Positions 3,646 through 6,006 of a DNA stretch of 25,839 nucleotides are shown in pieces (within the stretch, counting starts at the first letter, position 1; the number at the start of each line of letters is the position of its first letter). The position numbers were made by a program, and so were the translations under genes. The notes under the pieces are model-generated. The model was not told the DNA's origin, ran no database searches, and was given only the letters and a program-made list of their open reading frames with translations. The DNA comes from a virus, in IMG/VR virus record IMGVR_UViG_3300044639_000931, positions 1-25,839 of that record. One strand, written 5' to 3'.

Positions 3646-3929
3646 ATCATTTTTATTAGTTCTTCGTTCTTTTTAATCTGATTATTTGTTTCTGTTTTTG
3701 CTAGTAACCAAAGTTTCTCCAAATCAAAACTTCTTTGTCTTGAAATATTATATTCCATCTCTAACTTTTTAATCGTTTCTAAGCAATATTTTAAATCGTT
3801 TGATATTTCTACTAGTCCAACCTTTTTAAATTCACTAGTCGTGCTTAAATTAGCCTTTACAATCATTTTACTCATCGTTAATAAAAGATTTGTTTTTGAA
3901 ACGCTAATCATTAAATCTATTTTATCCAT
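3642..3929 (-). CDS. Coiled-coil phage protein, unknown function
   Basis: This 95-residue protein is almost entirely helical by composition. Heptad-like Leu/Ile spacing runs through LKYCLETIKKLEMEY and the C-terminal FDLEKLWLLAKTETNNQIKKN. No catalytic motif is present. It is coupled to the ATPase gene upstream by TAATG and to the 99-residue gene downstream by ATGA, so it is likely made together with the replication ATPase. A loader or accessory subunit is possible but not shown. Confidence 0.6.
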   Translation of the reverse strand: MDKIDLMISVSKTNLLLTMSKMIVKANLSTTSEFKKVGLVEISNDLKYCLETIKKLEMEYNISRQRSFDLEKLWLLAKTETNNQIKKNEELIKMI

Positions 3930-4825
3930 TAAAAATCTGTATTTGGTTGAATTGCTTCGTTAGTAATAATTATATTTTTTCTTTTTATGCAGTCAATACC
4001 ACCAACTTTAAACCCTAATCCTTTGTTATAATCTAAAAGAACTGGACTATTTAATTTTGTTGGCATTCCACCCGTATCGGTATCTTTCACCTTTACAACT
4101 TCGCACATTGTTAAGTTCCACATATCTGGGTGCTGTGTCATTCTATGTATTACAATAAAGTCATCAGCTTTATTCGCAAATGCTTTTCCACCTTCAATAT
4201 CACTCTTTAAAGGTGGCATAACATGACCAGCCCAAGCATGCTTTTCAGGGAATATTGCTGAACGTCTACCACTTGCAGAACTTGGGTGAGTATTTACATA
4301 AATTGTTTTTCCTGTTTTTGTAAAATGTTTTAAATCATTTAGTACATCATAATTACTAGAATAACTCATTGCAGTTTTTAAACCATTAAAAGGGTCTATA
4401 AGATAATTATCAGTATCAGAACCATGAAAAACATTTAATAATTCATCTGGAGTATATCTTTTTTGATTATCCACAAATTTAAAATAGTGTTCCATTTTCA
4501 TTTCTCCCTTTCTTAATTCTGTTGGTGTTAAATCTTTGAAAGGTTTACCAGCATACATCTGAATTAAATCTCTCATTACCTTACCTTGGTAGTTTTCGTC
4601 CATAAATAAAGTAAATGTTAAATCGTATTGACTTGCTAAAGCTAAAAAGTACCATTCCATAAAATAAGTTTTACCAACGTTATCGTGTCCTAGAATTATA
4701 TTTAATTGCCCTGTTTTCCAAGTTAAATGATCATCTAAATAACAACCTATTCCTTTACCAAATTGAATTTTACCATTTAAATAGTCGTGTAAATAGTCTG
4801 TGCTATGTCCTGAAGGTAGTATCAT
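3929..4825 (-). CDS. RecA/DnaB-like ATPase, probable replicative helicase
   Basis: The 298-residue protein is a single RecA-fold ATPase. GQLNIILGHDNVGKTYFMEW gives the Walker A loop GHDNVGKT at residues 46-53, and YLIDPFNGL at 141-149 gives Walker B. Between them lies FTLFMDENYQGKVMRDLIQMYAG, the region that holds the catalytic acidic residue in DnaB/RepA enzymes. TIYVNTHPSS further on is the sensor-type strand. There is no N-terminal DnaB domain or primase fused, so it resembles the short RepA/AAA_25-type phage helicases. It overlaps the initiator gene upstream by ATGA, the usual initiator-helicase pairing. Role: unwinding at the phage origin; a RecA-like recombinase is the less likely alternative. 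Confidence 0.82.
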   Translation of the reverse strand: MILPSGHSTDYLHDYLNGKIQFGKGIGCYLDDHLTWKTGQLNIILGHDNVGKTYFMEWYFLALASQYDLTFTLFMDENYQGKVMRDLIQMYAGKPFKDLTPTELRKGEMKMEHYFKFVDNQKRYTPDELLNVFHGSDTDNYLIDPFNGLKTAMSYSSNYDVLNDLKHFTKTGKTIYVNTHPSSASGRRSAIFPEKHAWAGHVMPPLKSDIEGGKAFANKADDFIVIHRMTQHPDMWNLTMCEVVKVKDTDTGGMPTKLNSPVLLDYNKGLGFKVGGIDCIKRKNIIITNEAIQPNTDF

Positions 4826-5478
4826 AATAATTTATTTGCGTTAACTTGTTTCATAACATTTGCAACGTACTCATCTTCGTTACTTAATTTTGTTTCTATG
4901 GTTTTTAAAGAATATTTATCTAATGTTTGTGAACGAGATATAAATTCAGGTGTACAATATTGATAACCGTTATCTTTATGGTATTGATTTTCTTTTAAAT
5001 TATCAATACAGTTTTTAATATCCTCTATTTCATATCCTTCTTTTATTCTAGATTTATATTTAGCTTTTATATTATCATTTACTTTTAAAAAGTTTCTTCC
5101 AAATGAATTATTAATGTATTTAAGTAAACGATCAAAGTCGATAGGCTTTGCAATAGTGTATTCTACTTTCTCTTTCTCTTTCTCTTTTACTTGTTCTTGT
5201 ACCGAAGGGGCTACCTCACCCCCTAGCGTAGGGTCTACCTTACCCCCATTAATAGGGTTAAATTTTTCATTTTTTGTTTTGTCATAATATCCTTTAATTT
5301 GAGCATTAATAGAGTGTTTTTGAGATAGATAAGCAAATTTTGCCATACCATTTAAATTTGGTTCTATATTTTCAAATTGCTTATTCATTATAGCATCATA
5401 AAAATTCAACCTATCTTTGTCGCTTAACTCATTAGCTATGTCATAATAGCTTCTAAAAAAATTTATTGCCTTTCTCAT
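4822..5478 (-). CDS. Replication initiator (DUF6291-like N-terminus, Phg_2220_C-like C-terminus)
   Basis: The 218-residue protein has two parts and a low-complexity linker. Residues 1-70 (INFFRSYYDIANELSDKDRLNFYDAIMNKQFE and after) match the DUF6291-type winged-helix front end of phage replication proteins. Residues about 112-190, with LLKYINNSFGRNFLKV, SRIKEGYEIEDIKNCIDN and a TPEFISR segment, match the conserved phage replication C-terminal domain (Phg_2220_C type). The linker (about 75-110) is encoded by two 24-bp direct repeats, which are much more GC-rich than their surroundings and may be origin repeats, as in many phage initiator genes. It is followed directly by the helicase gene. Family assignment is from memory of sequence phrases. 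Confidence 0.78.
   Translation of the reverse strand: MRKAINFFRSYYDIANELSDKDRLNFYDAIMNKQFENIEPNLNGMAKFAYLSQKHSINAQIKGYYDKTKNEKFNPINGGKVDPTLGGEVAPSVQEQVKEKEKEKVEYTIAKPIDFDRLLKYINNSFGRNFLKVNDNIKAKYKSRIKEGYEIEDIKNCIDNLKENQYHKDNGYQYCTPEFISRSQTLDKYSLKTIETKLSNEDEYVANVMKQVNANKLL
5200..5247 (+). repeat. Two tandem 24-bp direct repeats inside the initiator gene (possible origin iterons)
   Basis: Positions 5200-5223 and 5224-5247 are adjacent 24-mers identical at 20 of 24 positions, sharing the core CTACCT and a terminal ACCCCC. They encode GGKVDPTL and GGEVAPSV in the linker of the initiator. They form a GC-rich island in an AT-rich gene, next to a polypyrimidine run at 5168-5189. In many phages the initiator binds repeats inside its own gene; that role here is inference. 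Confidence 0.6.
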
Positions 5479-5480
5479 AA

Positions 5481-5681
5481 CTATTTCATTTCTTTATGAA
5501 GTAAATGTAAAGCTCCAATTAAATGGTACATTTCCTTTTTATTTAAAAGAATTTCATTCCATTCACAATCTATTTTTCTTACTGAAAAACTAATATATTC
5601 CCCACTGTAAATTTTATCACTTTCTGAATTGATTAATTCAATTTCTAATTCTTTTAATGCCCTGTTAAACTTGTAAATCAT
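5481..5681 (-). CDS. Small phage protein (66 residues), unknown function
   Basis: I start this gene at the ATG at 5679-5681 (MIYKFNRALKELEIEL). The frame is open further up to a GTG at 5735 or an ATG at 5723. Those extensions would translate the terminator hairpin and its U-tract into a false hydrophobic stretch (FFIYLIIYF). The product is acidic-basic mixed, with a beta-rich middle (IYSGEYISFSVRKIDCEWNEI) and a helical end. It lies between the structured RNA at 5703-5807 and the initiator gene, 2 bases before the latter's ATG. No family recognised; the position suggests a replication accessory role. Confidence 0.55.
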   Translation of the reverse strand: MIYKFNRALKELEIELINSESDKIYSGEYISFSVRKIDCEWNEILLNKKEMYHLIGALHLLHKEMK

Positions 5682-5702
5682 AAAATAAATTATTAAATAA
5701 AT

Positions 5703-5758
5703 AAAAAAAGCCCTGTAAATCATTAAGGGTCTCACTTCTTAATTCATTACAAGGCTTT
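5703..5758 (-). terminator. Rho-independent terminator (hairpin 2 of the small RNA)
   Basis: Stem arms lie at 5747-5758 and 5707-5718, 12 bp with one G-U pair, with a short second stem above (5738-5742 with 5723-5727). A T-tract of seven follows at 5709-5703 in the minus direction. It would stop transcripts from the lipoprotein operon and from the promoter at 5800-5829 before the replication genes, unless an alternative fold of the complementary loops relieves it. Confidence 0.75.
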
Positions 5759-5797
5759 AAATTCCTTTTGTTACTATGGTGTGAGACCGTAACTATG
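5703..5797 (-). ncRNA. Candidate structured small RNA / attenuator with two loop-complementary hairpins
   Basis: Read on the minus strand, hairpin 1 (5793-5770) pairs GTTAC with GTAAC and, inside, GGT with ACC, leaving a CTCAC loop. Hairpin 2 (5758-5707) has a 12-bp outer stem with one G-U pair, a UGAA/UGAU internal loop able to form tandem G-A pairs, a 5-bp TTAAG/CTTAA stem and a 10-base loop containing GTGAGACC. The two loops are complementary (CUCAC with GUGAG, extendable to GGUCUCAC with GUGAGACC, 8 bp), so a kissing or pseudoknot fold is possible. Hairpin 2 runs straight into seven U residues, giving a terminator. A perfect host-type promoter ends 3 bases or so upstream, so a free RNA of about 90 nt is expected. 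Boundaries and function are inferred. Confidence 0.6.
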
Positions 5798-5799
5798 CA

Positions 5800-5829
5800 C
5801 AAATATATAAATAATTATTTAATTAACAA
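5800..5829 (-). promoter_or_regulatory. Host-type promoter (TTG-N19-TATATTTG) for the structured RNA
   Basis: On the minus strand TTG (5829-5827) is followed after 19 bases by TATATTTG (5807-5800), a perfect match to the Bacteroidetes -33/-7 TAnnTTTG promoter. The predicted start falls a few bases downstream, right at the beginning of hairpin 1. The -33 part lies inside the 3' end of the lipoprotein gene. Confidence 0.75.
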
Positions 5830-6006
5830 TCTTTTTTTATAAACTTTCACTCTTTTTTTTCTGCTATCTCTTATTTTCTGTTGTTCGTTCCTACTTTTTT
5901 GATCAAATTGTAGCATTCTTTTACATTGAGTATCTAGATTGTATTGGTGAATACTAGTATTGCAGGATAATAAAAGTAAGATTAAAACACTATAAAAATA
6001 ATTCAT
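5815..6006 (-). CDS. Small predicted lipoprotein
   Basis: The 63-residue product begins MNYFYSVLILLLLSCN: a short hydrophobic signal segment with a lipobox-like LLSC, so the Cys at residue 15 is the likely lipidation site. The mature part, about 48 residues, is very basic, with KKRVKVYKKRLLIK at the end, and has no aromatic core, so it is probably an extended helix. It overlaps the gene upstream by 17 bases and ends just before the promoter at 5800. Phage lipoproteins of this size act as superinfection-exclusion factors or as outer-membrane spanins (Rz1 type). It is far from the holin and endolysin genes, which argues for exclusion or host modification over lysis. The function is inferred. 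Confidence 0.62.
   Translation of the reverse strand: MNYFYSVLILLLLSCNTSIHQYNLDTQCKRMLQFDQKSRNEQQKIRDSRKKRVKVYKKRLLIK

Follow-up and report, generated by a model that had tools for sequence, protein, structure and literature searches.

The window analysed here, a stretch of viral DNA of 25,839 nucleotides, carries on its minus strand a primase/helicase-like ATPase, a replication initiator-like ORF and a short ORF (Table 1). Directly ahead of these genes lie a promoter of the Bacteroidota type and a segment predicted to be transcribed into a leader RNA with two hairpins (HP1 and HP2). As the neighbouring genes lie on the minus strand, the leader RNA reads into the 66-aa ORF at 5681 and then into the initiator-like ORF at 5478. 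Small ORFs of approximately 50-74 aa are frequent between element and initiator, in the window (5481-5681) and in its relatives, and those tested gave no Pfam or PHROG match. A sigma-factor-like protein (phrog_1740) is encoded at 1369-1881 of the window.

Table 1. The leader element and the genes behind it, in positions of the window
Feature	Position	Strand	Basis or remark
Primase/helicase-like ATPase of the replication module	3929..4825	-	domain match
Replication initiator-like ORF	4822..5478	-	DUF6291; Phg_2220_C score slightly below its cut-off
First downstream ORF, 66 aa	5481..5681	-	without family hit; ATG 21 nt past the U tract
U7 tract	5703..5709	-	first three U base-paired in the HP2 stem
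Leader RNA, ~97 nt	5703..5799	-	start placed by the promoter, end by the U tract; homologs exist
HP2, terminator hairpin	5707..5758	-	12 bp + UGA/GAU internal loop + 6 bp
HP2 lower stem, 12 bp	5758-5747 / 5718-5707	-	sequence, folding
HP2 upper stem, 6 bp	5743-5738 / 5727-5722	-	sequence, folding
Kissing partner GTGAGACC in the HP2 loop (AA + GTGAGACC)	5728..5735	-	covariation
A-rich linker, HP1 to HP2	5759..5769	-	sequence; linker motif in 83/87 distinct relatives
HP1	5770..5793	-	stem GTTAC 5793-5789 / GTAAC 5774-5770, inner GGT/ACC
Kissing sequence GGTCTCAC in the HP1 loop	5781..5788	-	covariation with 5728-5735
Promoter TTG-N19-TATATTTG, Bacteroidota-type	5800..5829	-	sequence, profile of 86 family elements
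TATATTTG box of the promoter	5807-5800	-	sole promoter part conserved in relatives
TTG of the promoter	5829-5827	-	followed by the 19-nt spacer

A sequence-only reading of this region had described a short RNA with its own promoter, two loop-complementary hairpins, its own terminator and seven U, and all of these are found on the minus strand. The second hairpin had been given as 12+5 bp; the 12 bp and the G-A-capable internal loop stand, but the upper stem has 6 bp rather than 5. The leader RNA folds with a minimum free energy of -24.1 kcal/mol (z = -3.29), and none of 200 shuffles is as good. The plus strand of the same region folds too, as expected for hairpins. HP2 has the make-up of an intrinsic terminator, that is a GC-containing hairpin followed by a U run. 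Pairing of 5 to 8 bp had been claimed for the two loops, and in the window the HP1 loop (5788-5781) and the HP2 loop are indeed complementary over 8 nt. The inner GGT/ACC of HP1 competes with this loop-loop pairing; it is not conserved and is missing, for example, in Tenacibaculum phage Gundel_1.

Gundel_1 was the one named homolog obtained by blastn. Its element is intergenic and lies directly before an antirepressor gene, and its loops (HP1 GCTCTCAC, HP2 GTGAGAGC) exchange a G-C for a C-G pair in the loop-loop helix. DNA-pattern matches in viral contigs add members, e.g. with the loop pairs GTTCTCAC/GTGAGAAC and CGTCTCAC/GTGAGACG, and a descriptor script combining promoter, HP1, loop complementarity and a U-tract hairpin found elements with entirely unlike loops (CTTGGAC, CGTAGGA, GTCAGCAAA and CATCCGAC). 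The survey was anchored on two replication-helicase families (alignments A3 and A4) with 80 plus 80 loci taken from at least as many matches. Of these 160 helicase loci, the descriptor matched 90 on the gene strand and 22 on the opposite strand, and two of 160 after shuffling. A stricter parse with a score of at least 30 gave at least 144 hits over all collected loci versus one in mononucleotide-shuffled copies. Eighteen of the 144 were dropped by eye for AT-rich codes, distant parts or location in other loci; one of these, with the code GTAGGATTC, directly precedes the replication protein gene of Gundel_1 and is probably a real second element of that phage. After filtering, at least 126 hits remained on viral contigs, at least 87 of them distinct, with at least 42 code strings, some of which overlap. 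Among the matches listed, 116 helicase-anchored loci extend at least 1.8 kb upstream of the helicase; in 81 of these an element was detected by the descriptor or by the sequence model R1 described below, and a looser scan without shuffle control gave a candidate in 10 of 31 of the remaining helicase loci examined.

When 84,980 bacterial and archaeal species were scanned for the GTTAC..CTCAC type only, a single hit was returned, in Sporosarcina (L091); no terminator was seen there, and the hit is taken as chance. Plasmids gave no match for one query. Flavobacterium phage tant8-1 was rejected as a member, its likeness being limited to the promoter. The window and 15 loci with variants gave no match at the gathering score to the 4227 families of Rfam 15, only sub-threshold scores.

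Because the descriptor itself selects for complementarity, R1 was used for the pairing test. R1 is a sequence-only model built without structure, hence blind to pairing and non-circular as a finder; it was trained on TCTCAC-type loops and is biased toward such loops. It gave 78 hits, all on the gene strand, in 153 helicase loci searched of the 160 obtained from at least 80 plus at least 80 matches. The window and 59 of the 78 hits form the MAFFT alignment A5 (60 distinct sequences, unselected for complementarity), from which 19 hits were left out, namely near-identical copies and one cut by the contig end. On A5, 97.9% of cells are paired across the eight base pairs of the loop helix. Seven of these pairs show two-sided changes, the eighth is invariant, and one-sided changes are absent from the per-pair table. 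The HP1 stem is paired in 77.1% of cells, with two-sided changes at all five pairs; the HP2 stems were excluded from the counts because MAFFT misaligns their 3' arms. For the whole structure the observed pairing percentage and covariation score were each beyond all 500 shuffles; with the structure slid by 1-3 columns, only 25-48% was paired. Further pair types are not above shuffles (398 of 500 as high). Among the 66 unique R1 hits, the longest complementary run between an element's own loops is on average 7.30, versus 4.26 with swapped partners, a mean that never exceeded 4.80 in 5000 permutations; seven of the 66 have a run below 6, mostly from a misparsed hairpin.

These comparisons show that a predicted 8-bp helix between the two hairpin loops is kept by compensatory change, as is found in kissing-loop RNAs. 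Compensatory changes in homologous phages were the check that the sequence-only reading had named for its proposal, and its observation is real and larger than one window could show. An ordinary intrinsic terminator between operons, with incidental complementarity of the loops, would fit the terminator-like look of the element, but the loop-loop covariation, the shuffles and the slid controls make it the most improbable of the explanations considered here. Kissing-loop regulatory RNA and attenuator, two of the labels first offered, appear to be the best that remain, and the loop-loop covariation supports the kissing.

The other parts of the element vary to different degrees. The perfect TTG-N19-TATATTTG promoter noted earlier is present in the window, but the TTG at -33 is not kept in relatives (TTG at a 19-nt spacer in 7 of 86 family elements); the conservation of the TATATTTG box is partly due to selection of the elements, and HP1 mostly begins 4-6 nt after it. 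Among 87 distinct elements, the HP2 internal loop is of the UGA..GAU type (tandem G-A) in 53, AGUA/GAA in 12, flipped AGUA/GAA in eight and other in 14. AGUA/GAA is presumably the sarcin-ricin (bulged-G) signature. Together with the linker, these internal-loop modules suggest a defined three-dimensional fold. The U run comprises at least six U in 75 of 87 elements and only 4-5 in 12, and the element of the Flavobacterium phage FCV-1 type has its U tract shifted by 3 nt; given these short runs and this displacement, some elements may not need efficient termination.

In all 94 distinct elements that could be evaluated, a co-directional ORF of at least 45 aa starts 0-46 nt past the U tract (median 18.5 nt, 10-90% range 13-25), and none of the 94 has a TANNTTTG box between the element and this ORF; one further element, at a contig end, stands outside this count. 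The survey loci (L214 and up) contain 79 further terminators, some of which may be undetected elements; such an ORF follows within 150 nt in 61 (median 41), at 10-30 nt in 21 and not within 150 nt in 18. The comparison of genomes thus shows a conserved predicted RNA, made up of the TATATTTG promoter, HP1, linker and terminator hairpin, directly before a co-directional gene and with no intervening promoter. Upstream, the nearest ORF stop lies at a median of 16 nt before the RNA (found for 91), and such tight packing on both sides would be expected equally for a free-standing RNA gene in a compact phage genome.

The first ORFs behind the elements fall into 57 clusters, so the element is tied to the position and not to one gene. 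Most annotated first ORFs belong to replication or DNA metabolism. Among the 20 to 30 first- and second-place proteins scanned, matches were to DUF6291, DnaD-like, Lin1244_N and other initiators, and to MT-A70, N6_N4 methylase, BT4734-like, HNH/NUMOD4, GIY-YIG, antirepressor, helicase and ParB-like proteins, and several had no match at all. The position before replication genes noted at the outset is borne out by the downstream initiator-like ORF, the helicase-anchored survey and the domain matches. Several contigs carry two elements, each ahead of its own gene. On one of them (L341), an ORF with an MT-A70 methyltransferase domain (1159-2307) follows the second element. A subfamily with the code GTTACGG, GTTGCGG or ATTGCGG is located before genes with HNH/NUMOD4 endonuclease-like starts (L228 5755-6135, L320, L338, L343, L345, L359 and L367, with L228 alone as the Pfam basis). 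A role in phage DNA replication, as origin or primer RNA, would explain why the element adjoins initiator and helicase genes. It is very unlikely, since elements also precede HNH, methyltransferase, ParB-like and antirepressor genes and occur twice per contig or genome.

We favour, with a probability of about 0.5, a cis-acting, promoter-proximal and attenuator-like terminator leader of replication and early operons in phages of Flavobacteriia, in which termination would be conditional. Host RNA polymerase would start at the TATATTTG promoter and mostly stop at the U tract, producing an RNA of ~95 nt, and the genes behind the leader would be transcribed only by polymerase that has read through the terminator. 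Read-through would be set by the kissing fold, with its loop-loop helix, its linker and the non-canonical HP2 internal loop, as a platform; alternatively, this fold may let a factor change read-through, be it a phage or host protein, a ligand or the transcription or translation machinery. On this reading the leader would function in the manner of the lambda pR'-tR' short RNA under Q or of plasmid rep-leader attenuators, except that it has no antiterminator hairpin in competition with the terminator.

Since HP1 finds its loop partner at the apex of the terminator hairpin, kissing and the terminator are compatible. Relief of termination by switching to the 8-bp pairing, as had been considered, is thus disfavoured: both can coexist, and no covarying competitor of the terminator arms was found. 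Leaving the 3' arm of the terminator unpaired would cost a median of 6.6 kcal/mol. In 87 distinct elements, the terminator arms paired with linker or HP1 equally well in own and swapped combinations, no competing pairing is conserved, and covariation gave no mutually exclusive antiterminator of the kind found in a switching attenuator or riboswitch. A leader peptide was discarded, as the ATG inside the UGA loop yields no consistent ORF. The suggestion of a counter-transcribed RNA fared no better, since leader and downstream gene are co-directional; the window has no antisense promoter at 5501-5850, and antisense TANNTTTG boxes in 95 elements are not in excess over the control (11 of 95 vs 14%).

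The main rival is a free-standing small RNA acting in trans, whose kissing fold would bind a host or phage protein or sequester a defence factor, and whose location would reflect early expression only. Its own promoter, the mostly strong terminator and the lack of an antiterminator speak for it, as does the intricate fold, which is conserved along with its unpaired linker and its internal-loop modules. Against it, a co-directional gene follows within 0-46 nt in every one of the 94 evaluable cases, far tighter than for other terminators, different genes stand behind different copies, and an element's own kissing sequence does not recur elsewhere in its locus beyond expectation (four seen vs 4.5 expected in 66 loci), which gives no nearby base-pairing target. 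We regard this RNA in trans as possible, although rather doubtful. Under sense-sense control, the terminated RNA would build up as the phage copy number rises, and its loops would bind nascent leaders of the same code in trans, resulting in dosage feedback with codes that act like incompatibility determinants. The loops are self-complementary, at least 42 code strings exist, and two elements per contig differ in code in all eight contigs listed, a bare count in which some contigs are near-identical. Intramolecular pairing should, however, outcompete intermolecular pairing, and the code changes no faster than other helices, so we consider sense-sense control unlikely. Diversifying selection had seemed to act on the code, with 0.119 against 0.042 changes per pair over 18 pairs, but those pairs had been chosen for low backbone change, which biased the figure; an unbiased choice of 20 disjoint pairs gave 12 code changes versus 17.5 expected, and the idea was dropped.

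As a cis-acting leader, the element belongs with promoter-proximal terminators and attenuators and with kissing-loop RNAs. To our knowledge, replication-gene control in Bacteroidota phages has been little studied, and from a literature search we know of no description of a hairpin that kisses the terminator's own loop without an antiterminator. From the lambda promoter pR' a short RNA is made that ends at the terminator tR', and antitermination is brought about by Q. In both systems an operon is immediately preceded by a promoter and a short RNA that stops at an intrinsic terminator; unlike the Q system, the phage leader has a conserved kissing-loop fold and precedes replication rather than late genes. 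The packaging RNA of phi29 has two mutually complementary loops whose sequences vary between phages, whereas the leader adjoins replication genes, ends in a terminator and has a longer pairing (6-9 nt). Among plasmids, pT181 and pIP501 have attenuators and repZ has a pseudoknot, with long-range pairing inside the leader. These rep-leader attenuators and the IncI repZ pseudoknot are likewise structured leaders before a replication gene (PMC8383071, in excerpt). In contrast to them, the phage leader shows no sign of a counter-transcribed RNA or of a competing antiterminator, and the loop with which its HP1 pairs sits at the apex of the terminator itself. The phage RNAs GOLLD and ROOL are structured, with kissing loops and covariation; they form multimers, are of far greater size and often occur close to tRNA islands (PMC12286853, in excerpt); the leader shares with them the phage-encoded kissing-loop structure but has only ~95 nt and its own terminator. 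A literature search including excerpts of PMC12286853, PMC8383071, PMC8092290 and PMC4824070 found no description of this RNA; the RNA-seq in the excerpt of PMC8092290 is from bacteria grown without phage only.

Tentatively, and at somewhat less than even odds, we propose a new and widespread leader class, a 'kissing terminator' in which a promoter-proximal hairpin would kiss the apical loop of an intrinsic terminator and gate replication operons without an antiterminator helix, with freely varying locks of 6-9 nt and exchangeable internal-loop modules (tandem G-A, sarcin-ricin-like in either orientation). The element, a defined RNA present in named isolates, covaries with unusual clarity and raises the question whether contact between two loops, one of them that of the terminator hairpin, can set read-through. 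If so, attenuation would here work with no need for alternative helices, and the elements would form a natural collection of orthogonal parts that are ready to use.

Isolates with this architecture are Gundel_1 and the Flavobacterium phages FCL-2, FL-1 and FCV-1; the stretches of phi38:1 and Panino that were scanned contain no element. FL-1 has one element (CGTCTCAC) and a probable second one (GGGCTGAA). In FCL-2 the element (code CATCCAC) is found directly before AIX11908.1 and the helicase-like AIX11909.1. The FCL-2 stretch, as a 181-nt query, matched 78 records, nine of them over at least 80% of its length, the rest of the matches listed covering only ~37-52 nt. The F. columnare phages L374 and L378-L381 have ~52 nt of common sequence, ending near the promoter. 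Four records with partial matches (FCV-1, V156, V186 and FCOV-S1) carry a different element at the same place, with the code GTAGAGAG (7 nt thereof in FCOV-S1) and a U tract that is shifted. Judged from these sequences, element and downstream initiator seem to have been exchanged together as one cassette in F. columnare phages.
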